A DNA stretch of 64,000 bases, from the NCBI RefSeq assembly GCF_003555545.1, contig NZ_CP032157.1, positions 2,794,546 to 2,858,545 on the forward strand, written 5' to 3'. A model generated the notes under the pieces. That model made no database searches, had not been told where the DNA came from, and was given only the letters and a program-made list of their open reading frames with translations. The stretch comes from Paraflavitalea soli (GTDB lineage Bacteria; Bacteroidota; Bacteroidia; Chitinophagales; Chitinophagaceae). Made by a program: the position numbers and the translations under genes. This document shows positions 42,996 through 58,552 of the stretch, piece by piece. Position 1 is the stretch's first letter; each line of letters starts with the position of its first letter.

Positions 42996-44393
42996 TCAAC
43001 GCGGCCTCATCATTTCTACGCCCGGTATAACTTCAGCACCTGAACTGTACCAGGATTTAATGTCGGAAAACTGAAAGGTCCTTTGACGAAGCGGTGTGAC
43101 ACCAACTTGTGTGCTGCCATAAATTAAGGTAAGTGCTTTGTCGAGTGAAGTATCTCCGGGAAACCCCAGGTCCTGCGATAAAGGCAATTGGGCAAAATCA
43201 TTGACCACATGATCAGGCTGCAGCCCATTGCTATACCCGCCTCTGTCATTGGCATCAAATACTTTATAGATCGTGGGCATCATCATCCATTGCACCTGCC
43301 GGGGATTTCGCGTATCTTCTAGTAGAAAGGAGGCTTCATCCTTCCCATGAGTGGTAGCCCCAATACGTATTACCTGCAAATACGGTTTAAGGCTATTACA
43401 CAACAGCTCGGCTGCAGAAACCGTAGCACCGGAAGTAAGGATAAAAACCCTTTGCAAACCCAGATTGTGAGACTTCAGTTCATTCATATCCTTACCGCTG
43501 TTACTGCCGGAAAAGGCAATCGTCTGGCGAAATGACTGCTTAATAGTACCACCATTACGGTTGCCTTTAAAAGTAACATATACCTGATCGGGATTAAAGG
43601 AAGGGACCAACGTGACCGCCAACTTGGCAGAAGAAGCTACGCTGCCGCCGGGATTATAACGCAGGTCAAGGATCAGTTCGGTAACATTGGAATTTTTGAG
43701 CTTCTGTATCGCTTCCAGCATCAGTACATCTTCTGATTCTGAACATAAAAAATAAGCGAGATAACCCGTTTTAAGACCCTGCTTTTCAAAAAGCTTCGTA
43801 GCATACACACATTTATCATCTACATACCCGCTTTGAAAAGCTACTCTTGCAGAATCAATCAGGGCCGTTCCGTCACTGTTCAATGCAGCCAGCCGCAGTA
43901 CCGCCGAACTGTTGGATTGTAGTTCCGTTACCAGCGATTGCATGTTTTGAGGAGTAATGGTCTTATCATTTATTTTGGAAAAGAACATCCCCCTTTTTAA
44001 CTGCTGCCTGCCGGCATAACTATCCGGCACTACCAGGGTAATAACACCCACCAGTTGCTGTGCATCAAATGGATGAGTGATCAGGCTATATTGAAAACCG
44101 AATAGTCCAGCGGTGGTTTTCGATGGCCCTACCGTACTACGGTCACTGATCCAGGAAAAGCGGTCATTGGCAGAGAGCAGCTTTCTGAAAAACTGGTCTG
44201 TAGGCAGCGTATAATCCGGCTTACCCGTTATTTCATCTGCCCAGTAATAATACCGTTTCAAGGTATCGTACACCCATTTATTGTCAATCCCCAATTGATC
44301 TGTAGGCACAAAAGGCGTGTTTTTCTTGCTGCAAAACAGGCTTTGTCTGGAAACCACTGACAATAAAATGATAACCAGCCATTTACTTCCCAT
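42996..44393 (-). CDS. S41 carboxy-terminal processing-type peptidase
   Basis: A 465-aa exported protease. N-terminal signal 1-20 with a Cys in SLFCSKKN, which looks like a lipobox (Leu-Phe-Cys is slightly unusual). A helical N-domain leads to a PDZ domain (about 115-205) and the S41 core with LILDLRYNPGGSV (about 240-252). The Ser/Lys dyad is complete: Ser326 in SGATVSAAEL and Lys351 in THGKDEAS, 25 residues apart as in Ctp proteases. The ATG at 44393 fits the signal; an in-frame upstream Met at 44438 adds 15 polar residues. Acts in the periplasm or at the outer membrane on unknown proteins. Confidence 0.88.
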   Translation of the reverse strand: MGSKWLVIILLSVVSRQSLFCSKKNTPFVPTDQLGIDNKWVYDTLKRYYYWADEITGKPDYTLPTDQFFRKLLSANDRFSWISDRSTVGPSKTTAGLFGFQYSLITHPFDAQQLVGVITLVVPDSYAGRQQLKRGMFFSKINDKTITPQNMQSLVTELQSNSSAVLRLAALNSDGTALIDSARVAFQSGYVDDKCVYATKLFEKQGLKTGYLAYFLCSESEDVLMLEAIQKLKNSNVTELILDLRYNPGGSVASSAKLAVTLVPSFNPDQVYVTFKGNRNGGTIKQSFRQTIAFSGSNSGKDMNELKSHNLGLQRVFILTSGATVSAAELLCNSLKPYLQVIRIGATTHGKDEASFLLEDTRNPRQVQWMMMPTIYKVFDANDRGGYSNGLQPDHVVNDFAQLPLSQDLGFPGDTSLDKALTLIYGSTQVGVTPLRQRTFQFSDIKSWYSSGAEVIPGVEMMRPR

Positions 44394-44522
44394 ACGGATG
44401 CCCGGCTTATAGGAGTTACCCTCAATCAGGTATGTCATAGTCTGCCAATTTTAAGAAATTTTTATTTTTATGTTAAGCTTCAAGATTTATTTTTGTGATG
44501 GAATTAAACAATTACAACATCA

Positions 44523-44550
44523 GGGTGTCCGTTACAGCGGATGCCCTTTT
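44523..44550 (+). terminator. plus-strand terminator-like hairpin without a gene
   Basis: GGGTGTCCG and CGGATGCCC pair (two G-U pairs on the plus strand) around TTACAG and are followed by TTTT. On the minus strand the wobbles become A-C mismatches. No plus-strand gene ends upstream, so it could close a small RNA or be accidental. Confidence 0.4.
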
Positions 44551-44598
44551 GCATTATAGACACTACTCACCCATGCGCTGCACTCCTGCTATAAGAAA

Positions 44599-44632
44599 CA
44601 ATTACCTGTGAAGTAAATTCCACAGGTAATTG
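44599..44632 (-). terminator. terminator of the module B operon
   Basis: Perfect 12-bp inverted repeat CAATTACCTGTG / CACAGGTAATTG with a 10-base loop, followed on the minus strand by TTTCTT. It starts 27 bases after the last gene of the operon. Confidence 0.7.
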
Positions 44633-44658
44633 AGTAAATTCACAGGACACAATAACTC

Positions 44659-46116
44659 TTATTTTTTCAGGAACAATTTGCTTTGACGTTGTCCATTAAT
44701 GGTATAGATCACCATGTAATTACCAGCTATCAGGGACTTAACATCTACCTTCGTTTGCACAGTACCTTCCTGTACATTGCGTGTCAGCAGTTTTCTTCCA
44801 TCCATACTAACTACCTGGATAGAAGCGCCTGCTTCCGCCTGCGGGTGTTGTATCATCAACTGATCAACCACCGGATTGGGGTAAATATTGATCTTGATAA
44901 CGCCCTGTACTTTCAGTGCTTCACTAACAGTCTTAGCACCATCTTTGCCCGTCATTACCACACGATAGAAAGAAGTAGCTTCTGTACGCTTGTCTTTCAG
45001 CTCATAGATCTGTTTGTTAACGCCTTTCCTGATCGTTCTTACAGGAGCAAAAGTGTTACCACCGTCAACAGACTTTTCCACTGAATATTCTACCGCATCT
45101 TCTTCAGCAGGAGTAGCCCATTGCAGGGTAATAAGGTCTTCTTCTGCGTAGGACTCGCCAGACAACCAAAGGTTGATACCCAATACTTTTGCACCATCTA
45201 TTACCAATACATTGCCGAGACCACCCGTTGGGTTCTTGGTGTTAATGAAAGTGTTGTTCAAAGAAGGCCAGCGAAAACCTATAGTAAAAGGGCTCCAGGA
45301 TTCAACAACCGGATAAGGATAATAAGACCTCTTGAAAGCACCGGCCAGTTCAAACTGATCAATGCGCAAAATGCCATCAGGCAAGGCATTGGGAACAATA
45401 GTACCAAAAGCTTTGTCAACACCATCTACACTATTGGCGTAGAAAGGGGCATATCCATTGGCAATGGTATTGGCAGTGCCATCACTTTCAATAAAAGAAC
45501 CGGATACGGGTCTTCCCTGAGCCAGCAGGTTGCCATAAACGAATACAAATTGCTTAGCTACCCCTTTATTGAGTGGCGTAGCACGTAACCCCGTACCGCT
45601 TTCAGCATCCGAACCGAAGTTGATGGTGCGGATAGCACTGTTGGAAGCAGTAAGAATATGAACGGTAGTAGAGCCTCCTGCGCCATCGTTTAAGATCAGG
45701 CGGAAATAAACATCCTGACCAGGAAAAAAGGTAAATGCTTCATTGGCCTCGGCAGCAAACCAACCTGTATAAGAGCCGGCTGCATCAGTAGTAAATTCTC
45801 CATAGGTACCAGGGAAAGCGAGAGAGGGGCCTGTAGTGCGCACAAAATCACCGGTAGTCTTTACAAAAATGGGAAATCCGTCTCCGATATTAGAGCTGGT
45901 AGTATCCCCTGTAAAACCGTTGTAATAGCGATACATGCTAAGGGGTGTTAAACCCTGCACCTTCATGCGGCTTACGTAAGGCACTTTACGATCGTCTGAA
46001 GGGTTAAAATTCCCGGATCCCTGGATATATTGAGGGGCAATAACTGCCGAAACGGACTGAGCCTTGGCAATAACTACTCCTGTCAGCAACAGAAAAGTAA
46101 AATATATGCGTTTCAT
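44659..46116 (-). CDS. T9SS type A sorting protein, short cargo of module B
   Basis: A 485-aa exported protein. Signal 1-19 (ending AKAQS), then a domain of about 270 residues (22-290) starting VIAPQYIQGSGNFNPSDDRK and continuing with SRMKVQGLTPLSMYRYYNGF, GEFTTDAAGSYTGWF and IESDGTANTIANGYAPFY, closely matching the N-terminal domain of the large protein at 48905. A fibronectin-like segment follows (about 325-395, LQWATPAEEDAVEYSVEKS). The last ~75 residues are a T9SS type A sorting domain (INIYPNPVVDQLMI). It should be exported and attached to the surface, perhaps with PorV encoded two genes upstream. No enzymatic motif is seen. Confidence 0.83.
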   Translation of the reverse strand: MKRIYFTFLLLTGVVIAKAQSVSAVIAPQYIQGSGNFNPSDDRKVPYVSRMKVQGLTPLSMYRYYNGFTGDTTSSNIGDGFPIFVKTTGDFVRTTGPSLAFPGTYGEFTTDAAGSYTGWFAAEANEAFTFFPGQDVYFRLILNDGAGGSTTVHILTASNSAIRTINFGSDAESGTGLRATPLNKGVAKQFVFVYGNLLAQGRPVSGSFIESDGTANTIANGYAPFYANSVDGVDKAFGTIVPNALPDGILRIDQFELAGAFKRSYYPYPVVESWSPFTIGFRWPSLNNTFINTKNPTGGLGNVLVIDGAKVLGINLWLSGESYAEEDLITLQWATPAEEDAVEYSVEKSVDGGNTFAPVRTIRKGVNKQIYELKDKRTEATSFYRVVMTGKDGAKTVSEALKVQGVIKINIYPNPVVDQLMIQHPQAEAGASIQVVSMDGRKLLTRNVQEGTVQTKVDVKSLIAGNYMVIYTINGQRQSKLFLKK

Positions 46117-46151
46117 GATTCGTTTAATTATTTAATTTGAAAACGATCGCA

Positions 46152-46180
46152 ATAAGAATTACCTGTTCTGTATTGCCTGT
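46152..46180 (+). repeat. left copy of inverted repeat flanking the beta-helix gene
   Basis: Twenty-nine bases starting ATAAGAATTACCTGTTCT. Aligned with the reverse complement of 47670-47698 it matches at 27 of 30 columns (one mismatch, two single-base gaps). Confidence 0.7.
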
Positions 46181-46207
46181 CTCCTATTAAATATAAACGG
46201 CTACAGC

Positions 46208-47617
46208 CTAGTACCTTGCCCAGCCAAATAACCAGTTGTTGATACCAGGGCTGGCAGCGTTATAAGCGCCGAACGCACCTATATAGCTAACAGTACCGAA
46301 AGACCAGGCTGGAGCACTGCAGGCGCCACCAGCTGGAGTAGAAGCCAGACCAGAGAAATCACGGGGCTCTATAAGAGCTGGTGAACCTGCAACAGGTCTG
46401 AAGTCAGGCGTTGCAGCAAATGGATCCTTCAATTGAATGTTCGTATTGGCTAAAGGAGTCTTGTAAAGCTTGTTGGTTCCATTGATAGTAACACCAGTAA
46501 CCGTGGTATTAAAGGCCTGGATCAAACTATTTCTGTAGATAGTGTCAAGAGCAAGAACAGGAGGATCTACTTTAAGACCAACCGGGAATCCCATAAAGAT
46601 TGAGTTGGTAATGCGCCAGGCGCTCTTTCTGCGGAAATAATTACCATTCAATAAGCCCTTTGCTGCTGCGGTAGTGCTATCAGACAATCCTATTACAGTC
46701 ATGTTTGAAATAGTCGCCCGTGTATAAGGCTGAAGATCAGCACCAGTTGCATTGTTATCGCTCTCGATACCATTTGGATTGGCTGAATAGTTTGAAGCAC
46801 TCGAAGTCAATACAGAAACAGCAAACTGTATCTTACCCCTGTAACCGAAATCAAAATCAAAAGCATCATCATCGGGTTCAAAGGCAAACAGGTGTTTGGC
46901 ATTTACGGTACCACCAAAGAATTCAAACGCATCATCATTTCCTCTGTACACTTCAATAAAATCCAGTACAGTACCGGCACCTACACCACCACAGGTCAGG
47001 CCATTCAGCTCATTATCAGGAGAGATAATAGCGCCGGCATACTCAATGATGCAGTATTGCAGTTTTCCGGAACAATCCAAAGAATCACCCAGACCTTGAC
47101 CACCACCGCCATAGTTCACATCGATACCTGCAGGTACAGTAGGCAATTGGATGCCTTCAATGGTAGTATCAGCCCTGTTAAGAGGAGCTTTTCCCAGCAA
47201 CACAATACCACCCCAGTCGCCAGGTTGAGGACTTGCCTCATGAGAAGTGAAATGGATGGGATTGGTTGAAGTTCCTTCAGCATACAGTTTGGCGCCACGT
47301 GTAATAATAAGCGCGGAAGCAGTATCATTGTTATTACCAACTTTACGATTCACGCCTTCAATACGGCCGCCAGCCTGAATGGTCAACACAGCACCGCTGT
47401 CTACATAGGTTTTACCATTCAGGATATACAGGGTATCCTTGCTCAAGGTTCTGTTGGCTGCAATAACCTGTGGCAATGTAACGGTACCAAGGAAAGGACC
47501 GTTGCCGGCTTGAGTTCCGCGGGCATCAAATCCGTCGTTTAAGTTTCTTTTACAAGCGATGGCTACAACCAGCAATACACATACTGCTGAAAGGCCGATT
47601 AAAATTTTCCTTTTCAT
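46208..47617 (-). CDS. beta-helix surface lipoprotein of module B
   Basis: 469 aa with a lipoprotein signal (1-22, lipobox VAIAC, then KRNLNDG). The rest is a right-handed parallel beta-helix-like protein: TYVDSGAVLTIQAGGRIEG, SALIITRGAKLYAEG, PIHFTSHEA and GDWGGIVLLG are typical coil turns. Cys-rich GLTCGGVGAGT and acidic FEPDDDAFDFDF stretches (about 210-255) could bind metal. Homologues occur widely in Bacteroidota as predicted surface lipoproteins near TonB receptors; no enzymatic role is established. It sits between the PorV gene and the short T9SS cargo gene, flanked by an inverted repeat. Confidence 0.8.
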   Translation of the reverse strand: MKRKILIGLSAVCVLLVVAIACKRNLNDGFDARGTQAGNGPFLGTVTLPQVIAANRTLSKDTLYILNGKTYVDSGAVLTIQAGGRIEGVNRKVGNNNDTASALIITRGAKLYAEGTSTNPIHFTSHEASPQPGDWGGIVLLGKAPLNRADTTIEGIQLPTVPAGIDVNYGGGGQGLGDSLDCSGKLQYCIIEYAGAIISPDNELNGLTCGGVGAGTVLDFIEVYRGNDDAFEFFGGTVNAKHLFAFEPDDDAFDFDFGYRGKIQFAVSVLTSSASNYSANPNGIESDNNATGADLQPYTRATISNMTVIGLSDSTTAAAKGLLNGNYFRRKSAWRITNSIFMGFPVGLKVDPPVLALDTIYRNSLIQAFNTTVTGVTINGTNKLYKTPLANTNIQLKDPFAATPDFRPVAGSPALIEPRDFSGLASTPAGGACSAPAWSFGTVSYIGAFGAYNAASPGINNWLFGWARY

Positions 47618-47669
47618 AGTTGATAAGAAATTTGGAATTAAACAATTAAAACAATTACAAAAAACAATT

Positions 47670-47698
47670 ACAGGAATATAGAACAGGTAATTTCTTAT
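47670..47698 (-). repeat. right copy of inverted repeat flanking the beta-helix gene
   Basis: Reverse complement of the element at 46152-46180 with one mismatch and two single-base gaps. It also overlaps a 10-bp hairpin arm (47689-47698 pairs with 47623-47632). Confidence 0.7.
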
Positions 47699-47729
47699 GG
47701 TTTAATGGTCAATACGGCTATGGGTCTCA

Positions 47730-48842
47730 CTATCTCCAGCCGAAGAGAATTCCAAAACGCACTGTATTGGTCAGGGGATTTCTGTTGATCTTTTCGCCGG
47801 TAGGCACCAGGTAAGAGAAATTAATGGTAGCAAAGCTAAAATGAATACCAGCCCCGGCCGTAATATTCTGCCAGTTACCCGATTCATAGGTCTTACTGTT
47901 ATATCCCAGCCTCAGGTGCAACTGATCGTTATAGGTGTACTCCATACCAAATCCAAACTGCCATGCCTGGTTGCCAAAGGAATCGAACCAGCTGCCAAAT
48001 ACGCCTTTATCACGATAAGCCTTCATATCTTCTGCTCTATTCGGCAATTCTGGTACCAACAATTTATTGATGTCTGCTGCAAACGTCATCTTATTGTTAT
48101 CATCCCAGACCTCTGTATAGCCAGCACCGATACCCAGGTTGGCAGGCAGAAAATCTTTTTCAGCCGAATTATCGGTATAATTTATTTTACCACCCAGGTT
48201 AGATAAAGAGAGGCCGGCTGCCCATCCTGCACTTTTTTCATTCAGTCCATTGTAAAAAATGGAAAGATCGCCTGCCACAGTATTGCCGGCCTTGTAACTA
48301 ACGCCATTTATCGAACCTGTAGATAAATTAGAATGTATATACCTCAATGCGACTGCAATACCCAGTCGATCGGAAAGCTTGCGGGAATAGCCGAGATCAA
48401 TAGCCATCTCCCGTGGGTTGGTAGTTTGCAATTTATTCCCGTTAAAATCCACCAGCGTAAGGTCGCCCATGCTGAAGTACCGCAAAGAAGCAGACAGCGC
48501 TTCGTTGTCACTCAGTTTATGGTACCCTGCCAGCGTAGCAAGGTACATATCATCGGCAATCTCCTTTAGCCAGGGTGTATAAGTAGCGCCAATACCTGAC
48601 CTATCTGTTGCAAAAGGTGTTTTGGCCAGGTTATAAAAACCGCTGTTGGCATCAGGACTTAATGCGATCCCTGCATCTCCCATCCCTCCGCTACGTGCAT
48701 CGGGTGAAATACGCAGAAAAGGCACTGCTGTAGTAGTAATATTGACTGTATTGTTGTTGCTCTCCTGGGCTTGCACCTGAGTGGCTACTATGCTTATCAG
48801 GAAAACAAAGATAGCAGACCCGAACTTATATAACTGTTGCAT
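47730..48842 (-). CDS. porV: PorV-family T9SS outer-membrane protein
   Basis: A 370-aa outer-membrane barrel of the PorV (LptO) type. Signal peptide 1-25 (ending VQAQES), then the family signature TTAVPFLRISPDARSGGMGD (about 36-55), repeated amphipathic strands such as SASLRYFSMGDLTLVD, and a C-terminal strand TVRFGILFGWR. PorV shuttles T9SS cargo from the SprA translocon to the PorU sortase. Elsewhere it usually sits next to porU; here it lies between cargo genes of the sigma-controlled operon, so it may be an additional, dedicated copy. Met at 48842 is chosen because it gives the signal peptide; one upstream Met (48884) would add 14 polar residues. Confidence 0.88.
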   Translation of the reverse strand: MQQLYKFGSAIFVFLISIVATQVQAQESNNNTVNITTTAVPFLRISPDARSGGMGDAGIALSPDANSGFYNLAKTPFATDRSGIGATYTPWLKEIADDMYLATLAGYHKLSDNEALSASLRYFSMGDLTLVDFNGNKLQTTNPREMAIDLGYSRKLSDRLGIAVALRYIHSNLSTGSINGVSYKAGNTVAGDLSIFYNGLNEKSAGWAAGLSLSNLGGKINYTDNSAEKDFLPANLGIGAGYTEVWDDNNKMTFAADINKLLVPELPNRAEDMKAYRDKGVFGSWFDSFGNQAWQFGFGMEYTYNDQLHLRLGYNSKTYESGNWQNITAGAGIHFSFATINFSYLVPTGEKINRNPLTNTVRFGILFGWR

Positions 48843-48904
48843 GTATGAGAATTTAAAATGAAATCTTTTCTGTTCCTTATTCATGTTGCTGATTACTGAT
48901 CACA

Positions 48905-51568
48905 CTACCTGATCACTACTTTTGTTTTGAGTAAGAACGCCGGTCCGCTTACCCGCACATGGTAGATGCCCGGAACTACATTACCTACCGGCAATTGATA
49001 ACTACTGTGTCCTTTCACCAATGTAACATTTACCTGCAACAGCCTTGTACCATGCTGATCAAACAGTTGTATGCCTGCTTTACCAGCCTCTACGGAATAG
49101 ATATTTACCTTCAACTGGCCAGGGCTACTCAGGTATGCATTTATATTATCCTCCGAACTGCCCTGCGGCGGCAATATCCTCAGTGTAGCACTCAATTGAG
49201 CGATCGCATAATTATTAGAAGTGGCGCCTGTCACAAGAATGGGATATTTTCCTGCTACAGAATTGGTAGTAGCTGTAGTACTCACTACCGCAGGTGTAAT
49301 GAGGTTACTAACGTTTTCGCCGTTTACAAATCCATTATACTTAATCTCCAGGTCCGGATTGCGCTGTCCTTCCATTTTCACAGTATCAGCTACCCGTATC
49401 TCCAGGTTGGCCTTCTGCACAGTCAGCGTTCTTATTACATCCGGGGCAGGCGCATTAAACGCGTTACCTGGTTGTGAAGCAGTAATATTGGTCGTACCTG
49501 CACCTGTAATGTGTATCATACCATTTACAACAGTAGCCACACTGGTATTGCTGCTGCTATAACTAACCGCCAATCCTGAACTGGCTGTAGCGGCTGTTAC
49601 AAAATCGCCATCGCCATATCTTTTTACCGGCAATGCGTCAAATGTGATGGTCTGAGCTGGTAAAGGATTTACCGTTAGCGTGCCATTCTCATAAGTGATA
49701 TCATAATTAGCGGCTGCTGCACCTTCCACCTTTATGGGATAATTGCCGGGTTGTGAGGAAGCGATAGCTGTAGTACTGATCGTTGGCTGAGTAGTAAGAG
49801 TAGTCTTGCTTTCATTGTTGACAAAACCAGTATAAGCAATTGTCAGCTCCGGATTGGGTTGTCCAAACAGCCTTGATTTGTTTTCTGCCTTAATGATAAG
49901 GGATGCTTTTTTTACGGTAAGCAACTCGCTCACATCAACTGCCGCTTCATAATTGATATCACCAGGCTGGGAAGCCTTTATCATGGCAGTTCCTGCGCCA
50001 ACAATATGTATTTTATTATTGACTACTGTTGCCACTGCGGGATTATCGCTGGTATAAAAAACCTGCAATCCTGAGCTGGCAGTAGCAGGGGCAAAATCAG
50101 CATCCCCATACGTTTTAGGCACCAATGGTCCCAAAGCAATAGTTTGCTGTTGCCTGGAGGCGGTAACCTTTAAATTGCCCGGAACATGTGTAATAGTATA
50201 ATTGGTTGCCGTAGCGCCACTGATCGTAATAGGATAATCGCCGGCGCCCGAAGAAGCCGTAGCAGTAGTGCTGGCTATGGGTGGGGTGGTTAGATCACCC
50301 GCATCATCCCCGTTTACAAATCCGTCATAAATGATCGTGAATGCCGGAAGAGGATCACCCTGCACCTTTTCTTTATTTTCAGCAGTGATGGTAAGCGGAG
50401 CAGGATTAACGGTCAAGGAGCGTACCACCGGTGCAGCAGCACTATAGTCTGTACTGCCAGCCTGCTCTGCTGTAATATCCGTTGTTCCTGCACCAACAAT
50501 ATGAATGGTGTTTCCATTAACGATGGTAGCAACGGCCAGGTTGCTGCTGGTATAAGTAACCGGCAAAGTAGAACTGGCTGTAGCACCCGGATCAAGATCG
50601 GCGTTACCATACGTTTTTGCCGTTAAGGGGACAAACGTAATCGTTTGAGGCTGCTGAACGGCCGCTCCCAGGGTGATGATAGATCCGTCCAGTACGATCA
50701 CGGAAGCCAATCCGCCATCAGCATTGGCCGTACTGGCAGATCCGCCCCCTGCTTTGGCCCAGGAACCATCTGCCGAGGTCTTGACGCCCGTTTCTGCGCC
50801 ATCCGTAAGATTGTACTGTGCAATCTTCTTAATGCCGGATGCCAGGTTATTCGGAATGATAACGCCCCAGGTCTTGTTCTGGCCGTTTACAAAATCAGTA
50901 TAAAAGTCTGCATATCCATTGGCGATCGTGTTGTCTACTCCATCGCTCTCTATTACCGAGCCGCATACCGGTCGGTCTGTAGCATCATCCCATAGCATTA
51001 CAAAATTTTTGGCTATGCCGGAAGTTGCTGCCGTACTGCGCAAAGCCGTGCCATCATCAGGTGTAGGCCCAAAATTGATAGTAGTGATCTGGTTGGTGGT
51101 GGTAAGGTAATGCACTGTGCTTGTTCCTCCATCGCCATCATTTAACCTGACCCTGAAATAGACAAATGAACCCGGGTATGGGAAAAACAGGAATGCGTGA
51201 TTGACCTCTGCCATAAACCAACCCGTATAAGAACCGGAAGCATCTGTTGTAAACTCACCATAACCACTGATGAAATCCGGGTTTTCCGTTCTTACAAAAT
51301 TGCCGGCAGCATCAATGTGAATGGTATGCCCTTCACTGGAAGGATTGCCCGGGTCATCTACAAAACCTGTTGTATACCTGTACGTTTTATTGGCTGTAAG
51401 GCCTTCAATTTTTAAGCGGCACGCAAAAGGGGTCTTTCTGTCGTCTGCCGGGTTAAAGTTGCCCGTCCCTTGTATATACCGGGGCAGGATCAGTTCTGTA
51501 ATAGACTGACTAAATGTATTGGTGGTGAATAATAGAAAAGCAATAATACAGGTGGAAAAAAGTTTCAT
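48905..51568 (-). CDS. large MBG-domain T9SS cargo of module B
   Basis: 887 aa. Signal 1-20 (ending TFSQS). The N-terminal domain (about 22-280) starts LILPRYIQGTGNFNPADDRK and matches the short cargo at 44659 through most landmarks. Then come three pairs of Ig-like units (about 300-795): a Big_2-like domain (TYGNADLDPGATASS, TYGDADFAPATASSG, RYGDGDFVTAATASS) each followed by an MBG domain (AENKEKVQGDPLPAFTIIYDG-type in family terms). A T9SS type A domain closes the protein (about 810-887, PGQLKVNIYSVEAGK). Architecture is that of an extended surface adhesin or scaffold. It follows the 240-aa lipoprotein by 20 bases. Confidence 0.88.
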   Translation of the reverse strand: MKLFSTCIIAFLLFTTNTFSQSITELILPRYIQGTGNFNPADDRKTPFACRLKIEGLTANKTYRYTTGFVDDPGNPSSEGHTIHIDAAGNFVRTENPDFISGYGEFTTDASGSYTGWFMAEVNHAFLFFPYPGSFVYFRVRLNDGDGGTSTVHYLTTTNQITTINFGPTPDDGTALRSTAATSGIAKNFVMLWDDATDRPVCGSVIESDGVDNTIANGYADFYTDFVNGQNKTWGVIIPNNLASGIKKIAQYNLTDGAETGVKTSADGSWAKAGGGSASTANADGGLASVIVLDGSIITLGAAVQQPQTITFVPLTAKTYGNADLDPGATASSTLPVTYTSSNLAVATIVNGNTIHIVGAGTTDITAEQAGSTDYSAAAPVVRSLTVNPAPLTITAENKEKVQGDPLPAFTIIYDGFVNGDDAGDLTTPPIASTTATASSGAGDYPITISGATATNYTITHVPGNLKVTASRQQQTIALGPLVPKTYGDADFAPATASSGLQVFYTSDNPAVATVVNNKIHIVGAGTAMIKASQPGDINYEAAVDVSELLTVKKASLIIKAENKSRLFGQPNPELTIAYTGFVNNESKTTLTTQPTISTTAIASSQPGNYPIKVEGAAAANYDITYENGTLTVNPLPAQTITFDALPVKRYGDGDFVTAATASSGLAVSYSSSNTSVATVVNGMIHITGAGTTNITASQPGNAFNAPAPDVIRTLTVQKANLEIRVADTVKMEGQRNPDLEIKYNGFVNGENVSNLITPAVVSTTATTNSVAGKYPILVTGATSNNYAIAQLSATLRILPPQGSSEDNINAYLSSPGQLKVNIYSVEAGKAGIQLFDQHGTRLLQVNVTLVKGHSSYQLPVGNVVPGIYHVRVSGPAFLLKTKVVIR

Positions 51569-51588
51569 CGTTATTTCTTTAAACAGAA

Positions 51589-52311
51589 TTAATATATTTT
51601 AACGGGGATAAAGGAATAAGGAATACTGGCATTACTGGCCGTGCCAAGCAGGTATACGCTGAAATCAGGATTGGCTGAATAATGCAGGCTGATCGCTTCA
51701 GCCAATACCCTGCGGGGAGAAGTCGTAGAATAGAATCTGACATTGGCTTTTCTATCGCCGCTCCTGCCTTCAAAGTACCGGGAGAACTCCCCTTTCTTAA
51801 GCGTAAAGCTATCTGTTGGCGCATAAGTTTGTCCGCCACTGGTAATGCTGTTTTCCACCACCACCCGTACAGAATCCGGCAACGCGTTAAGATTATACAC
51901 AATGGACAATTTGAAATAACCTTCTTTAGCCAATGGTTCGTTTTGGGGTGGACCAACCCACACCAGCTTTGCTCCTGCAGCAGCCTGAAAAAAGGTAATA
52001 CCGTTCACGAAACCAGGCTTGTAACGAACAATAGTATCCAGCAATAATTCGTTGCCGAATAGGTTGTAGACCTGGAACCGGTGCTCAAGGTCATAATATT
52101 CAACCGTGACGTTACTGGTTCCTCCGGGCGCCTCCAGTGCTTCAGTCAATACGGTATTTTCATCTGCCACAATCTTCAGGGTGAACGGATCGTTTGTAAT
52201 AGCCCGCAGTGAAAGGTTGGTAAATTTGGCTTGTACAACCGGCTCCCCTTTCTTAGAACAGGCGCCTGATAAGAACAGGATCAACAAAACAGCAAAAGAT
52301 CTATTGGTCAT
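51589..52311 (-). CDS. lipoprotein of unknown family (module B)
   Basis: 240 aa with lipoprotein signal 1-18 (lipobox LSGAC, then SKKGEP). The mature part is strand-rich and falls into two similar-sized halves (about 25-125 and 130-240), the second ending FSVYLLGTASNASIPYSF. The size, position after a TonB receptor and beta content recall the DUF4397-like lipoprotein of module A, but I could not match the motifs. It begins 12 bases after the receptor stop and precedes the MBG cargo by 20 bases, so it is surely co-transcribed. Probably a receptor-associated surface protein. Confidence 0.72.
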   Translation of the reverse strand: MTNRSFAVLLILFLSGACSKKGEPVVQAKFTNLSLRAITNDPFTLKIVADENTVLTEALEAPGGTSNVTVEYYDLEHRFQVYNLFGNELLLDTIVRYKPGFVNGITFFQAAAGAKLVWVGPPQNEPLAKEGYFKLSIVYNLNALPDSVRVVVENSITSGGQTYAPTDSFTLKKGEFSRYFEGRSGDRKANVRFYSTTSPRRVLAEAISLHYSANPDFSVYLLGTASNASIPYSFIPVKIY

Positions 52312-52323
52312 TATCGCAATGGT

Positions 52324-55300
52324 TTATAATTTATAACTCAGTGTGATCAGGAAATTAGCGCCTCTTTTCACTTTGTAATTTTCAAAGTCGAGCGCTTCGT
52401 TATAAGCATCTCCTTTGGGATCATTGTTATCCCCTTCAGTCGGATAGGGATAACCTTCCTTCCGGCCATTGGTATTATTAGAATAAATAATGGTGTATTG
52501 ATTCAGCAGATCGCCAATATTAAATTTGAGTTCGGCCTTTTGCTTGAATAGTTTGGTACTTAATTGGATATCTACTATATCCCTTGAATTTTCATATTGA
52601 ATGATGGTAGCATTGGTCCCTCCGTTTACGATCCGTCTGCCAAAGCGGTTATAGGCGATATTGAAGCCCCACACTTTTCCCTGGTAGTTCAGGCCGGCAT
52701 TAATAATATAGGGTGAAAGCCCCTGTATCGGGCGTTTGCCATCTGCTACAAAATTGGTATCCTTTTGCGTATAGGGGCTCTTGGTTACGAGGTAACTGAT
52801 CTCCCCTTTCAGGTAAGTATAATTGGCGCTGATAAACAGGTTAGATAGCCATGGAAGTGTGGGATTTATGAAGTCAAAGGACTTCCGGAGGTCAACCTCA
52901 AATCCCTTTGCCGTTGCACTATGAAGGTTTTGGTACATCACTGCATTGGTCGGATTGCCCAACAGGTAAAAACGCTCTACCGGTTTATCAAAGTCTTTGT
53001 AAAAAAGAGAAGCGGAAAATATTTCATTGCCTGAGGGATAATATTCAAAACGGATGTCGTAGTTCTTGATCCTTGAGGTTACCAGTGCATATTGACCTAT
53101 TACCTGCACCTGCTCAACAAAATCATAATAGATATAAGGTGAGCGCTCTACAAATTCCGGCCTTGCCAGTGTTTTACTGAAAGCTCCCCGGATATTGAAT
53201 TTATCAGTTACACTGTAAATAATGTTCACCGAAGGTAGCCAGTCTTTTTCCCTGTAGGCAGAATCATGAAAAGCGGAGCTGCCATTGGCGTCATAGAATA
53301 CCGTGGAGAGTGTCATTTCATTATCTTCAAAACGAAGTCCACCCGTAAGGCGCAGCTTTTTCAGCACCTTCAGGTCAAGCATGGCATAACCAGCCTGCAG
53401 TATCTGCTTACCCGTATACCGGTCGCCCGTTGTCCCGTTCCTTATATAAGAAGGTGTATATTCCACCTTTCCTGCTGCAACAGCTGCAGGTGATACAATT
53501 TCCGCATAAGGCAATCCTTGCATCCCCTCCGTATAGGAAGCGCCAGCCGCTTCCACTATCCGCAAGCCCGTAGCATCAAAATCAGCATCACGCTTTGAAT
53601 AGGCATATCCGGTTTTAAATAACTGCCGTTCTTTGGCTATCTGAAAAGGTACGCTTACATTGACGCCGGTATTGTAACGCTTTTCTTTTAATTGAGAGGC
53701 ATATAATCCTCCCCAGAAAAGACTTCTTTCATTGAAATTATAACGATACATATGTTTGCCCGAATCAACATCCGTACCCACCAGGAAACGACCATCCGGC
53801 TGCTCACGCGTATATTTAATGTAGTCGCCGTACCAGTTGATCCTGATATCGGCACGCGAAACAGTATGCTCGCCCTCCAGCCTGGTTTGCATCATACGGC
53901 TGCTGAGCGTAACCTCTCCGCTCCGGTTTTCAAATCTTGAATTACTGATCTGGTACCCATAGCGATCATCAAACTGATTAGAGTACTTGTCGTTATACAG
54001 GTTTTTCCAGGCGATCTTGTGCTTCTTTGATTTATACGCCATATTGAACAACCCGCCAATAGTGGTATTATACCGGTAACGCTGGATATTGAAATCATAA
54101 TTCTGCAGGCTCCGCGCGTTGCCTTCCTCATAGAATTGTTCGTTCAGATAAGTAACTGCTGCTACAAAACCCAACGATTGATTATTGGCAAAACGCTTAT
54201 TGACGCCACCCGACAACTGGTAATTTTGCTGGGGCATATAAGGGGCGCTATACCGTTGCCAGCGATCCGGTATCTGTTTATTAATGCGGCGAATGGTGGC
54301 AGTATCTTTTGCATAGAGCGATTTGATATACTGCAACTGGTCAAAGGCCCTGCCATCACCAAACCATTTCCTGTCAGCATCGATCCTCCCAATGGAAGCC
54401 TGCTTATCGCGTCTAAAACTTAAAAAATCCTTATTGGCGCTGGCCGTATTGAATCCCGTTCCTACCAATACCTGCAGGAAATTTTCAGCTGGCACATCTT
54501 TGCTGTTCACCTGCACCAGGCCACCCGTAAACTCCCCCGGCAGATCAGGCGTAGCCGTTTTATTGACCACTACATTATCCACCAAAGAACTCGGAATGAT
54601 ATCAAAACTGAAGTTTCTCCGGTTAGGCTCTGTACTGGGTAGCGAAGCGCCATTGATCAACACGTTATTGTAGCGGTCACTCACCCCCCGGATAGTGACA
54701 AACTTGTCGTTCTGCACCGTAATACCACTCACCCGCTTCAATACCTGACCGGTATTATTGTCCGGCGTTACCCGTATCTGTTCTGCACTGATCCCATCCG
54801 TCATGCTGGCGTTGTTTTTTTGCGTCATTAACAGCGCCTTTACCGATTCACGCCGGGCACTGCTGGTAACTACTACTGCTTCCAGTTGCCTGGAATCTTT
54901 TCGCTCCAGGGCAACACTCAGGTCTGTTAATTCCCCTTCTTTTACAACGACATCCGAGATCCGTTTCGTTTGGTAACCAATAAAAGACACCAGTAAGGTA
55001 TACGTGCCGGCAGGCAGCGTCACCACATAGTCTCCCGAAACAGAAGTAGTAATACCTTTTTCCATCCCTTCTACAGAAACGCTTACACCGGGCATTACTT
55101 CATTATTCACACTGCGGACCACGCCACTTATCTTTCCCGGCTTTCCCTGCAGGGCGGCAGGGTCTGGCGCAACACGTGCAGCTACTTTTACAGCAATCAC
55201 TTTCTCCGATACCTGGTACACCAGTCCAGCCTGTGCACTCAGCAGTTCAAGCGCTTTACCAAGCGTAACTTGCTCCTGGTTGAAAGCAGCAATACTGATC

Positions 55301-55527
55301 TTATCCAGCTGGGTTTGCGTATAGGAAAAAGCATACACACTTTGCCGGTCCAGTTCCTGCAATATTTTTAAAGCCGTGGTATTACTGAGTTTAATGCTTA
55401 CTTTCTCCGTAAGCGTGGTAAGTTGGGCATGGGTAAAAAAGCTACATACTAAACACAATGAGGTACAGAATAGCCAGCGTATAGCTACGCGGCAGCGTAA
55501 ACGGTTAGTTGAGGTCATATCAATCAT
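52324..55527 (-). CDS. STN-domain TonB-dependent receptor (module B)
   Basis: 1067 aa and intact. Signal peptide about 1-35 (ending FTHAQ), STN domain (about 40-115; KVSIKLSNTTALKILQELDR) that signals to FecR, carboxypeptidase-regulatory-like domain (about 130-215), plug (about 225-345; NTGQVLKRVSGITVQ, RGVSDRYNNVLINGASLPS, TPDLPGEFTGGLVQVNS), and barrel to the C-terminal LITLSYKL. It is the same receptor type as the interrupted one of module A. A second in-frame Met at 55518 is an alternative start. FecR is encoded 48 bases upstream. Substrate unknown; no TonB or exbBD genes are nearby. Confidence 0.92.
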   Translation of the reverse strand: MIDMTSTNRLRCRVAIRWLFCTSLCLVCSFFTHAQLTTLTEKVSIKLSNTTALKILQELDRQSVYAFSYTQTQLDKISIAAFNQEQVTLGKALELLSAQAGLVYQVSEKVIAVKVAARVAPDPAALQGKPGKISGVVRSVNNEVMPGVSVSVEGMEKGITTSVSGDYVVTLPAGTYTLLVSFIGYQTKRISDVVVKEGELTDLSVALERKDSRQLEAVVVTSSARRESVKALLMTQKNNASMTDGISAEQIRVTPDNNTGQVLKRVSGITVQNDKFVTIRGVSDRYNNVLINGASLPSTEPNRRNFSFDIIPSSLVDNVVVNKTATPDLPGEFTGGLVQVNSKDVPAENFLQVLVGTGFNTASANKDFLSFRRDKQASIGRIDADRKWFGDGRAFDQLQYIKSLYAKDTATIRRINKQIPDRWQRYSAPYMPQQNYQLSGGVNKRFANNQSLGFVAAVTYLNEQFYEEGNARSLQNYDFNIQRYRYNTTIGGLFNMAYKSKKHKIAWKNLYNDKYSNQFDDRYGYQISNSRFENRSGEVTLSSRMMQTRLEGEHTVSRADIRINWYGDYIKYTREQPDGRFLVGTDVDSGKHMYRYNFNERSLFWGGLYASQLKEKRYNTGVNVSVPFQIAKERQLFKTGYAYSKRDADFDATGLRIVEAAGASYTEGMQGLPYAEIVSPAAVAAGKVEYTPSYIRNGTTGDRYTGKQILQAGYAMLDLKVLKKLRLTGGLRFEDNEMTLSTVFYDANGSSAFHDSAYREKDWLPSVNIIYSVTDKFNIRGAFSKTLARPEFVERSPYIYYDFVEQVQVIGQYALVTSRIKNYDIRFEYYPSGNEIFSASLFYKDFDKPVERFYLLGNPTNAVMYQNLHSATAKGFEVDLRKSFDFINPTLPWLSNLFISANYTYLKGEISYLVTKSPYTQKDTNFVADGKRPIQGLSPYIINAGLNYQGKVWGFNIAYNRFGRRIVNGGTNATIIQYENSRDIVDIQLSTKLFKQKAELKFNIGDLLNQYTIIYSNNTNGRKEGYPYPTEGDNNDPKGDAYNEALDFENYKVKRGANFLITLSYKL

Positions 55528-55575
55528 CCTTATGTTTTAAGTTACGTATCCGGAAACTGCTTTTTTATTACAGCA

Positions 55576-56559
55576 TTATTCAGTGATGAATACTTTCTGT
55601 TGTATGACAGAGAATTTCAGATCATGTACAAACAGTACATTGCGCAGGGCTGGCTGCCAGTCGTTCACGGTAAAAATGGCCGTGATCCGTTTATTTCGTA
55701 AAAGTTCTTTGTTGTAATCAATCGCCAGGTGATACCTGCTGCCTATCCGCTCAACCGCTTCTTCCAACGGTACTTCATTAAATACAAGCGCGCCTGTGGT
55801 CCAGGCATTGATATTATTGACAGCCATGGGTAATAGCTGCCAATCCTTCGTTTCCCGTGAGTAACGCATGGTTTGCGCAGGCGCCAGCACCGCCGTGATC
55901 GATTTGGCTTTATCTTCCAGGGCAATCTTTCCATGCACCAGTGATATCCTGATCTCCGATTCCTGCTGGTAGGCTTCAACATTAAAAGCCGTACCCAGTA
56001 CGCGCGTATGTATATTACCTGTCTCTACTACAAAAGGTCGTGAAGCATCTTTAGCGACCTCAAAGAAGCCCTCTCCCGACAACTTCACATACCGTTGTTT
56101 TTGATTATACTGTTGATGATTAAACTCCAGTCGGGAGTTGCGGTTAAGCCACACGATGGTGCCATCAGGCATCGTTACCTTTCGGACCACATTGCGGTCA
56201 TTTTCAATGACCGACAATGCAGCAGCCGATTGCTCCGTGGCCGTACCCTGCCTGCCTTTGAGGAACCACAACAGCGAACCCGCTCCCACGGTGATAATGA
56301 TGGCAGCTGCCGCCACATATTTGCGCACCAGGGCGCCCCGCTTCATGGGCACTACCGGCGCCGCTTTCAATTCCTGCATCAACTGCTGATGCATACGGGC
56401 TTTCACCGATTCCAGCATGGCAGGCGTCAACTCATCAGCAGTATCATTCCATTCCACCTCCGCCATCCACTTCCTGAACAGGTTGATCTCTTCCGGTGTG
56501 CAGTCGCCGGCTTTAAAGCGCTGCATAAACAGCTCAATAGATTGTCTGGAGGGTTGCAT
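55576..56559 (-). CDS. FecR-family anti-sigma factor (module B)
   Basis: 327 aa. Cytoplasmic sigma-binding part (about 1-75, with FKAGDCTPEEINLFRKWM), one membrane helix (about 80-97, YVAAAAIIITVGAGSLLWFL), FecR domain (about 130-225; KVTMPDGTIVWLNRNSRLEF and GEGFFEVAKDASRPFVV-type segments), and a C-terminal DUF4974 domain (about 255-327; FNEVPLEEAVERIGSRY). It holds the sigma factor at the inner membrane until the receptor's STN domain transmits a signal. Lies 45 bases after the sigma gene and 48 before the receptor. Confidence 0.92.
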   Translation of the reverse strand: MQPSRQSIELFMQRFKAGDCTPEEINLFRKWMAEVEWNDTADELTPAMLESVKARMHQQLMQELKAAPVVPMKRGALVRKYVAAAAIIITVGAGSLLWFLKGRQGTATEQSAAALSVIENDRNVVRKVTMPDGTIVWLNRNSRLEFNHQQYNQKQRYVKLSGEGFFEVAKDASRPFVVETGNIHTRVLGTAFNVEAYQQESEIRISLVHGKIALEDKAKSITAVLAPAQTMRYSRETKDWQLLPMAVNNINAWTTGALVFNEVPLEEAVERIGSRYHLAIDYNKELLRNKRITAIFTVNDWQPALRNVLFVHDLKFSVIQQKVFITE

Positions 56560-56604
56560 GTAAGAGTAGTAACACAGCGGGAAAAAAGTACCAGACGTTT
56601 TGTA

Positions 56605-57168
56605 TTACCAAAATGTTAAGAACATATATACCCGTTTGAAAGCTACGCGTAAACGTTTGGAGGCCAGCTGTAATTGATTTTTAACCGTTTGTTTGGATAA
56701 TAGCAGGTCGCCGGCTATCCGGTCTATAGATTGTTCCTGGTATACATTACGGATAAAAATATCCCGCATCTTACCAGGCATACCCGTAATAGCGGTAGAA
56801 ATAGCCTCATCGATATTGGCCCATTTCTCCTTTTCTTCTTCCGTAGCATGGTATTCGTTGGCGGGAGATTGTTGTACCAGGAAAGCTTCGAAACTCTTAT
56901 AGTGTTTTTCCTGCAATCCCTTGGACCGGAAATAATTAAACACTTTGTGGTACAAGGCGGCTACCAGGTATGGCCGCTCGGATCCGGAAGGAGGCAGGGT
57001 GTGAAAATTCTTCCAGATATCCGCAAACAGGTCGTGTACGATATCATAAGCATCTTCTGTGGAGCCGGTCTTTTTGCAGGCCAGCCTGAAGAGAAACTCC
57101 CAATAGGCATGGTACAGCTTATTAAAAGCTGCTTCCTTTTCATCATGGATAGGTAACTGATGGTTCAT
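56605..57168 (-). CDS. ECF RNA polymerase sigma-70 factor (module B)
   Basis: A 187-aa ECF sigma factor, FecI-like Bacteroidota type: region 2 with LACKKTGSTEDAYDIVHDLF (about 30-49) and region 4 helix-turn-helix in SIDRIAGDLLLSKQTVKNQL (about 145-164). The Met at 57168 is chosen: a -7 box at 57188-57181 lies just upstream and would overlap the alternative start at 57183. First gene of the colinear module B operon, and its likely activator. Confidence 0.92.
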   Translation of the reverse strand: MNHQLPIHDEKEAAFNKLYHAYWEFLFRLACKKTGSTEDAYDIVHDLFADIWKNFHTLPPSGSERPYLVAALYHKVFNYFRSKGLQEKHYKSFEAFLVQQSPANEYHATEEEKEKWANIDEAISTAITGMPGKMRDIFIRNVYQEQSIDRIAGDLLLSKQTVKNQLQLASKRLRVAFKRVYMFLTFW

Positions 57169-57180
57169 AACCGGTACCCG

Positions 57181-57188
57181 CAAATGTA
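57181..57188 (-). promoter_or_regulatory. -7 box for the module B sigma gene
   Basis: Minus-strand TACATTTG matches TAnnTTTG perfectly, 12 bases before the ATG at 57168. No good -33 element is visible. It would make the start of module B dependent on the primary sigma factor. Confidence 0.5.
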
Positions 57189-57290
57189 TACGGTAATTTT
57201 CCGAAATGCCCGTTTTCCGTTGTTATCAAAATATGAATAGGATATGTGCTTATATATCAGGTCAGTGAATATATACCGGCTCCTTTTTGT

Positions 57291-57298
57291 TACATTTG
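57291..57298 (+). promoter_or_regulatory. -7 box for the antiporter gene
   Basis: TACATTTG is a perfect TAnnTTTG, 48 bases before the ATG at 57347. A divergent promoter pair with the sigma gene box at 57181-57188. No clear -33 element. Confidence 0.45.
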
Positions 57299-57346
57299 TT
57301 GATAGCCCCATTTTCCCGGTATTTTCAACATTATAACCACCATAGC

Positions 57347-58459
57347 ATGGCGCATCAGAAGTATTTGCATCCCCGGCTGAAAATCGCATTGCCTTTATGG
57401 ACCCTGATCTGCCCTGTCATTGGGCTGTTACTATTATTCATCATAGACAAAGATCATTCAGGGATCGTCGATGCATTGATGGGCGTGTCGCTGATCACCG
57501 TCGTACTAAGTGCTGTACACCATGCAGAAGTAGTGGCCCACAAGGTGGGAGAACCTTATGGTACCCTCATCCTGGCCCTGGCCATCACCATCATTGAGGT
57601 ATCACTTATCGTAACCATTATGTTGTCTGAAGGATTGCAGGGAGCCACCCTGGCCCGGGATACCGTATTTGCAGCCATAATGATCATCCTTACCGGCATT
57701 ATTGGCTCCTGCCTGCTGCTGGGAGGATATCGTTATAAAGAACAGCTTTATGTGAAACAGGGCGTAAGCGCCTCCCTGGTAACTCTTACCACCATCAGCA
57801 TATTGACCCTAGTATTGCCCAACTTCACCACCAGCAAAGCCGGGCCGGTATACTCCACCAGCCAGCTGATATTTGTAGCCATTGTATCACTTGTATTGTA
57901 TATTGGGTTTGTAATGGTACAGGCCGGGCGCCACCGGGGATATTTCCTGCCTAAGGATGAAAGCTCCGAATCGGATGACACCCCTTCCGACCCGCCACCC
58001 TCCCCTTTAACCACCTTTGCCAGCCTCCTGTTTTTATTAATAGCGTTGGTAGTGGTGGTGATCATGTCCAAAAAACTATCCCCCACCATCGAGGCTATTG
58101 TATTAAAACTGGGTGCGCCCAAAACCCTGGTAGGCATCATTATTGCCTCCGTGATCCTTTTGCCGGAAGGACTGGCCGCTTTACGGGCCGCTCACAAAAA
58201 CCAATTGCAAACCAGCCTGAACCTCGCCCTGGGGTCCGCCCTTGCCAGCATTGGCCTTACCATACCCGCTGTAGCTATTGTAAGTTATTTCACCGGCTTC
58301 AGCATCACCCTGGGAATTGATGGCAAGTCAACCCTCCTGCTCGTATTGTCCCTGTTCACCATCAGTATCTCCTTTGGCGCCGGCCGTACCAATATCCTGC
58401 AGGGTATTGTATTGCTGGTCATCCTGGCCACCTATTTATTTACGACCATCGTGCCTTAA
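57347..58459 (+). CDS. calcium/cation:proton antiporter (ChaA-like)
   Basis: A 370-aa inner-membrane antiporter of the CaCA superfamily with about eleven helices. The first alpha repeat contains HHAEVVAHKVGEPYGTLILALAITIIEVSLI (in family terms, about 58-90), with the conserved acidic residue in the IIEV segment. The second alpha repeat has VIASVILLPEGLAALRAAHKNQLQ. A hydrophilic loop rich in Ser, Asp and Pro (about 205-225) separates the halves. It exports Ca2+ or Na+/K+ for protons. ATG at 57347 is preferred to the TTG at 57287, which lies before the promoter box. Confidence 0.87.
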   Translation: MAHQKYLHPRLKIALPLWTLICPVIGLLLLFIIDKDHSGIVDALMGVSLITVVLSAVHHAEVVAHKVGEPYGTLILALAITIIEVSLIVTIMLSEGLQGATLARDTVFAAIMIILTGIIGSCLLLGGYRYKEQLYVKQGVSASLVTLTTISILTLVLPNFTTSKAGPVYSTSQLIFVAIVSLVLYIGFVMVQAGRHRGYFLPKDESSESDDTPSDPPPSPLTTFASLLFLLIALVVVVIMSKKLSPTIEAIVLKLGAPKTLVGIIIASVILLPEGLAALRAAHKNQLQTSLNLALGSALASIGLTIPAVAIVSYFTGFSITLGIDGKSTLLLVLSLFTISISFGAGRTNILQGIVLLVILATYLFTTIVP

Positions 58460-58467
58460 AACAAGCC

Positions 58468-58481
58468 CCTGTAATTACAGG
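58468..58481. other. 14-bp perfect palindrome
   Basis: CCTGTAATTACAGG lies 8 bases after the antiporter stop and about 30 bases upstream of the kinase -7 box. It lacks a T run, so an operator is as likely as a terminator. Confidence 0.5.
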
Positions 58482-58510
58482 AGCGGGACCGGTAAAAAGG
58501 CCAGATCGGT

Positions 58511-58518
58511 TAATTTTG
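58511..58518 (+). promoter_or_regulatory. -7 box for the histidine kinase gene
   Basis: TAATTTTG matches TAnnTTTG perfectly, 34 bases before the ATG at 58553. No clear -33 element. Confidence 0.45.
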
Positions 58519-58552
58519 CTCCCTTTACCGAACGCTATACAATCAATCCGGC

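Follow-up and report, generated by a model that had tools for sequence, protein, structure and literature searches.

The window analysed here is a stretch of 64,000 nucleotides of the Paraflavitalea soli genome (family Chitinophagaceae; a single contig of 8.44 Mb, of which the window is C1:2794546-2858545). On its minus strand lie genes for an extracytoplasmic function (ECF) sigma factor, a FecR-type anti-sigma factor, a TonB-dependent receptor, two probable lipoproteins (LP1 and LP2), a second copy of PorV, the carrier of the type IX secretion system (T9SS), and two candidate T9SS cargos (cargo1 and cargo2). In our preferred account, which we hold to be fairly probable, the cluster is an older sensing cassette of FecR, TonB receptor and LP2, together with the sigma factor, that took in a cargo1-PorV pair, the operon PorV carrying cargo1. 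A wider proposal, to which we give an even chance, is that Chitinophagaceae have repeatedly broken the rule of 'one general PorV'. Many PorV duplications, each tied to one cargo with a co-diverged sorting domain, would then form a third T9SS lock and key; the pair in the window would stand under a TonB-receptor sigma switch, and a domain lacking the PNP motif would keep the cargo on its carrier.

Two proteins of the host genome score above the PorV equivalog cut-off. The operon copy, the proposed dedicated carrier (47730..48884, minus strand; 384 residues), reaches 382.3 bits with NF033710 (cut-off 250) and 201 bits with Pfam PF19572; the other copy reaches 471.5 bits with the equivalog model. 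The latter is encoded at G000:C1:5312980-5314110, directly downstream of a 1142-residue protein which we take to be PorU from its position and its match to a C-terminal sorting domain (CTD). The operon PorV lies away from PorU, outside this canonical locus. Ten PorV-bearing named loci (L090-L099) come from genomes that also hold another, better-scoring PorV. Since the host and these genomes all have a further, better-scoring copy, the operon PorV is regarded as an extra one. The sequence-only reading of this DNA had called for a second porV next to porU, a sole copy being damaging to the idea of a dedicated shuttle; that gene is present, and the operon PorV as the only PorV is ruled out.

PorV was searched for in 294 Chitinophagaceae genomes (E 1e-60) and in a sample of 198 genomes of the phylum (E 1e-70). 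With no more than six and nine candidates scored in each genome, respectively, the numbers of multiple copies are lower bounds. It was found in 268 of the 294 genomes, with two or more copies in at least 33 (counted by hand). In the phylum sample 136 of 198 genomes have PorV and at least three have two copies, namely the host genome, G127, which belongs to the same family, and G433 from a different one. In G433 a gap of 15 bp separates one PorV from a downstream gene with a sorting-domain end; beside the other copy no such gene was recognised.

The neighbours of PorV were scored with a sorting-domain profile built from the 30 best own-genome matches, at an adjacency threshold of 12 bits and a stricter one of 20 bits. 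Fetched neighbourhoods and named loci gave 86 distinct PorVs, of which 31 occupy the canonical locus and 55 lie outside it. A directly adjacent gene on the same strand with a sorting-domain end accompanies 49 of the 55 extra PorVs (45 upstream, 4 downstream only), and 38 of the 55 at 20 bits. The first count had been 49 of 62; seven PorVs with canonical-locus markers (tandem arrays L045 and L046; L048, L237 and L244) were moved. At the 31 canonical loci a sorting-domain end was seen upstream in six cases, all of them PorU, and in none downstream; away from PorV the background was 15 of 696 genes. The 55 extra PorVs are not 55 events because close relatives are included, and changes were counted on a tree instead. 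The partners are varied, comprising MBG-repeat proteins, proteins of 167-198 residues and proteins of 1400-2600 residues. The 167-198-residue kind, with a strong sorting-domain end, is encoded directly upstream of a divergent PorV at L038, L252, L253, L254, L272, L274, L277 and L279, eight loci that derive from four genomes of genus code g7 and, for the other four, from loci named Chitinophaga. At L045 and L046, from two genomes of the order, PorV is tandemly triplicated at the canonical locus.

The 17 operon PorVs group in a single clade, with support of 99 in a quick tree and 100/99 in a careful tree of 83 rows, from which the long branches L039, L043 and L049 were left out. All 17 have cargo1 directly upstream and sit in a TonB-receptor operon. 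A single old duplication behind the extra PorVs is unsupported, as supported branches of the careful tree carry five or more changes of the paired label; in total nine changes were counted there (8-9 in bootstrap trees), each of which may be a gain or a loss. One clear late case is the paired PorV L233, whose sister is the canonical-locus copy L229 from its own genome (support 100/98).

Cargo1 (48905..51568, minus strand) consists of a beta-sandwich N-domain, MBG repeats (MBG_2, E 6e-59) and a variant T9SS sorting domain without PNP. This candidate type A domain scores 19.2 bits alone, 22.4 in a profile scan and 23.1 when in-frame neighbours are included, against the TIGR04183 cut-off of 23. 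Cargo2 (44659..46116, minus strand; 485 residues), with the same kind of N-domain, ends in an ordinary type A domain with YPNP (Por_Secre_tail 41.7 bits; TIGR04183 37.6 bits, above the cut-off). Of the two T9SS sorting domains claimed from the sequence, that of the 44659 product stands, and borderline scores were obtained for the 48905 product. The cluster proteins gave no match at E 0.01 to TIGR04131 or PorP/SprF, the marks of the type B alternative. PNP occurs within the last 100 residues of none of the 17 operon cargo1 proteins, in 17 of the 32 other paired cargos, and in 29 of the 30 best own-genome domains, the last group being picked by score. A Lys near the C-terminal end of the sorting domain is at least 90% conserved.

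A profile of the variant domain was built from nine loci outside the genus and searched against 59 genomes at E 1e-9. Twelve matches were obtained. The genus's four operon cargos score 98-123 bits, the cargos next to PorV in G033, G013 and G006 reach 48-50 bits, and the remaining five lie at 41-46 bits. The best seven of the 12 adjoin an extra PorV. Within the genus the number of variant-domain matches equals that of operon PorVs in each genome (G000, one; G001, one; G004, two; G002 and G003, none). CTD identity was also compared with PorV identity over the pairs. The raw correlation (r 0.84) is inflated by shared descent and is not relied on by itself; after canonical-PorV identity was accounted for, the partial r was 0.77 (0 of 2000 permutations; 47 of the 49 pairs, L040 and L044 being omitted for want of a fetched canonical PorV), and it was 0.60 without the within-operon comparisons. 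The carrier adjoins its cargo, is inherited together with it, and the CTD co-varies with the carrier, the pattern of a dedicated pair. A dedicated shuttle for cargo1 is well supported as the best reading of this adjacency, co-occurrence and co-variation of sequences.

The extra PorV might instead be interchangeable with the canonical one and simply add to the carrier supply when the operon is on, so that the cargo adjacency would reflect co-expression only. Both PorVs do lie above the same family cut-off, 34 residues that are at least 95% conserved are identical between operon and canonical-locus PorVs, and the PorV of Flavobacterium johnsoniae copes with diverse CTDs (PMC10994853). Against these stand the residues L322 and W338, found in 17 of 17 operon PorVs at positions where 94% of the 31 canonical-locus PorVs carry F and R, and the seven best variant-domain matches beside an extra PorV. 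A CTD that tracks its own PorV beyond canonical-PorV distance is, moreover, needless for interchangeable copies, and we consider an effect of dosage unlikely. W338 lies in a short loop that, in a putative topology drawn from strand lengths, would face outwards.

Several observations weigh against the preferred account. Dedicated carriers are not required, because one PorV of F. johnsoniae takes many type A domains (PMC10994853). Genes that travel as a unit will co-vary even without specificity, and the co-variation of CTD and PorV fits specificity and also pairs inherited as units. L322 and W338 do not explain pairing in general, because the other 32 paired PorVs are mostly canonical at these positions (R in 27, F in 22). 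Six of the 55 extra PorVs have no adjacent sorting-domain gene: L039 (such a gene is the second one upstream); L043, L049 (below the PorV cut-off); and L241, L247 and L268, which make up one well-supported clade. In the three genomes of this clade PorV adjoins genes for proteins of 129-151 and then 978-1077 residues, with no recognised sorting domain. Nor is the PNP-less state unique, since 13 of the 124 own-genome sorting-domain matches begin at profile position 7 or later (counted by hand). The PNP-less domain of the MBG type is not general either, as the alignment shows, on our reading, an ordinary-looking start of the domain in 19 of the 49 paired cargos. The outside-genus profile missed the PorV-adjacent MBG cargo of G032 (L044) at E 1e-9. 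An unpaired protein of 1110 residues with a similar PNP-less domain is encoded in the host genome at L282:4064-7396 (G000:C1:2754063-2757395), scoring 55 bits with a wider profile that includes the genus's own rows; its gene precedes a putative TonB receptor gene (1047 residues) and then a lipoprotein-like gene (480 residues), both named from sequence. Finally, the STN match of the receptor in the window is sub-threshold (20.9 bits against a cut-off of 28.4, E 3e-4; residues 65-114, before the carboxypeptidase-like domain). The TonB receptor of the earlier description is retained, with an STN match weaker than was implied there.

The sequence-only reading had made the operon PorV a shuttle for both cargos, that is, for a co-induced set of surface proteins. 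The gene for cargo2 lies two genes downstream, its N-domain is 49% identical to that of cargo1, and it is found within five called genes in 11 of the 17 operon-clade loci. Its CTD, however, is ordinary, it was not found within five called genes at the other six loci, and at several Niastella-type loci gaps of about 300-620 bp part LP2 and cargo2 from PorV. We regard service to both cargos as improbable; the dedicated shuttle is supported for cargo1, directly upstream in 17 of 17, and not for cargo2. As judged from these arrangements, the operon PorV most likely serves cargo1 and not both, and cargo2, with its ordinary sorting domain, would probably use the general PorV. Very improbable is a part in an attachment complex (as PorQ for PorZ) or a FadL-like small-molecule channel in place of a translocon carrier: according to a suggestion in a review, PorV-like barrels cognate to CTDs could protect these from cleavage, and the CTD of PorU stays on PorV (PMC10202324), but the operon PorV fits the PorV equivalog far better than the PorQ model (75.5 bits, cut-off 220), and a channel role leaves the CTD neighbours unexplained.

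The eight colinear genes described earlier were found again at the same positions, from 57168 to 44659 on the minus strand, with all eight frames open and gaps of 45, 48, 12, 20, 20, 112 and 91 bp from sigma to cargo2. The sigma gene (56605..57168) encodes 187 residues with Sigma70_r4_2 (32.2 bits) and Sigma70_r2 (27.0 bits) above cut-off, and TIGR02985 below it (112.5 against 126.4 bits). It is followed by the FecR-type anti-sigma factor (55576..56559; 327 residues; FecR 65.6 and FecR_C 32.5 bits, both above cut-off) and the receptor (52324..55527; 1067 residues), in which Plug, barrel and CarboxypepD_reg, the carboxypeptidase-like domain, are above cut-off. LP1 (51589..52311; 240 residues), of unknown family, carries near its N-terminus the motif ..SGAC, presumably a lipobox. 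LP2 (46208..47617; 469 residues) is modelled as a parallel beta-helix with a predicted local distance difference test score (pLDDT) of 88.2. All of these lie on the minus strand. Searches of Pfam, NCBIfam and PHROG returned nothing for LP1 or LP2 at E 0.01. The family searches agree with the identities first given to the sigma factor, FecR, the receptor, PorV and the 44659 cargo, and the ECF sigma, FecR and receptor genes together make up a gene set of the FecI/FecR/FecA type.

Self-regulation and control by a ligand would follow from the known FecA/FecR/FecI family. By that analogy, a ligand bound to the receptor would signal through its N-terminal domain to FecR, which would free the sigma factor and allow the cluster to be transcribed. 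Cargo1 would cross the inner membrane by Sec and enter SprA, the general T9SS channel, where its variant sorting domain may be taken up by the operon PorV and not by the general one. Because this domain does not begin with the usual PNP and the carrier is produced alongside, cargo1 probably stays on its PorV as an outer-membrane anchor and would not be passed to the PorU sortase, much as PorU is held on PorV and SprB on SprF. An MBG-repeat stalk with a beta-sandwich head would then be displayed near the receptor and the two lipoproteins.

The nine-gene order, counting an S41 peptidase gene behind cargo2 (42996..44438, minus strand; Peptidase_S41 67.4 bits), is complete at L034 (G001) and L035 (G004) of the same genus. 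Since it recurs in two other genomes, the gene order is not due to chance, and the objection that synteny might be lacking falls away. L036, also of G004, has the shorter set FecR/receptor/LP1/cargo1/PorV; in G002 and G003 of the genus no second PorV above the cut-off was found. A receptor-alignment scan was also carried out on a collection of species genomes, and the best 80 of 334 relatives were kept. PorV and cargo1 were present at ten top-listed receptor loci, from Pseudobacter, Niastella, Longitalea, Paraflavitalea, Filimonas and one Chitinophaga (L094, on the same contig as L034, was removed as a duplicate). The remaining 70 of these best 80 loci had no PorV and no cargo match; FecR lies within 400 bp upstream in 65 of them, LP2 within 2.5 kb downstream in 53, the S41 peptidase in 46 and a sigma match in 38. 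LP1 gave BLAST matches at 8 of the 10 PorV-bearing loci against 0 of the 70 others. The peptidase gene trails the cluster at L034, L035 and 8 of the 10 PorV-bearing named loci, lies upstream of FecR at L098 and was not found at L096. The receptor-FecR-LP2 cassette is thus the commoner unit, and because 70 of the 80 receptor loci have neither PorV nor cargo, the great part of these having FecR, the cargo1-PorV pair is probably a later addition in one lineage, as judged from distribution. The signalling, lipoprotein and T9SS parts that the sequence-only reading saw combined are indeed co-located; as equally old partners they do not hold, the cassette being widespread without the pair.

In F. johnsoniae the CTD is bound within SprA by loops of PorV, its conserved residues mainly determine the fold and not the contact, and another carrier is expected for type B (PMC10994853). 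Type A cargos use one general PorV, and type B cargos go with dedicated carriers, whose genes often follow immediately downstream (PMC12618676, PMC12635249); type B proteins are held on PorP-like barrels (PMC9143113), and the CTDs of PorU and PorZ are retained on PorV and PorQ, respectively (PMC10202324). In the available portions of PMC8564354, PMC7323717, PMC12578637 and PMC13211072 no PorV pairs are described; PMC7323717 compares PorV trees and in its available text mentions no PorV duplication and has neither 'duplicat' nor 'paralog'. A dedicated PorV for a type A cargo appears in none of the titles and abstract openings of the literature searched, which excepted subscription papers and preprints.

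The operon PorV belongs to the same equivalog family as the general PorV of Porphyromonas gingivalis and F. johnsoniae, shares its genome with a canonical copy and has neighbours with a clear (cargo2) or borderline (cargo1) type A sorting domain. It differs from the general carrier in lying away from PorU, in a sigma/FecR cluster, beside one variant-domain cargo. With the type B pairs SprB-SprF and Fjoh_3952-Fjoh_3951 it shares the carrier directly downstream, cognate pairing, an adhesin-like cargo and the suggested retention (PMC12618676, PMC9143113), whereas here the carrier is of the PorV and not the PorP/SprF family and the domain of cargo1 is type A-like. As with PorU, whose uncleaved CTD remains on the barrel (PMC10202324), a CTD protein is encoded directly upstream of PorV, but cargo1 is an MBG-repeat protein and PorU a sortase. 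Sigma, FecR and TonB receptor genes have the same order as in FecI/FecR/FecA signalling, to which the cluster adds a T9SS carrier together with its cargo, one further cargo and two lipoproteins.

A spare PorV beside a probable cargo suggests that the general carrier can split into specialised cargo-carrier pairs, and that dedicated carriers, described for type B adhesins, may have evolved more than once. The question at stake is how one PorV recognises about a hundred dissimilar sorting domains, to judge from the own-genome matches. Natural PorV-CTD pairs in one cell with a general PorV would allow specific and general recognition to be compared directly, with W338 as the first candidate residue. 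The cluster may also represent an inducible display system in soil Bacteroidota.

The LP2 model consists mostly of strands and has many invariant acidic residues. Foldseek returned weak matches to beta-helix proteins of a generic kind, with query TM-scores not above 0.31 among the matches listed, and because the fold matches only the generic beta-helix, no enzyme or ligand is proposed. The model of the cargo N-domain (pLDDT 84.9) is a beta-sandwich with weak pilin- or adhesin-like matches only. Neither LP2 nor the cargo N-domain has a sequence relative in PDB.

A terminator-like hairpin of 14 pairs with a T-rich tail lies 3' of cargo2 (44599..44632, minus strand). It had been read as the end terminator of the operon; the hairpin is there, and taken alone it is weak evidence, because a scan of 43500-59000 on both strands gave 22 such sites against 14.4 (standard deviation 4.1) in shuffled sequence. 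The scan found no further minus-strand match in the gaps inside the gene set. The S41 peptidase gene starts 220 bp past the cargo2 gene and is possibly a transcript of its own. The sequence AATTACCTGT has four exact copies in the window on both strands (44600-44609, 44622-44631, 46157-46166 and 47683-47692), all in three consecutive gaps of the cluster, and two of them make up the hairpin; with up to one mismatch there are 14 matches in the window where 4.4 are expected. A conserved block of 17 bases, TTCATATTTTGATAACA (57221..57237, minus strand), lies upstream of the sigma gene. It aligns across three genomes of the genus and has a single exact copy in the host genome; five other fetched loci, of which two are one and the same contig, contain it exactly, and it is exact or near-exact in the Niastella-type clusters.

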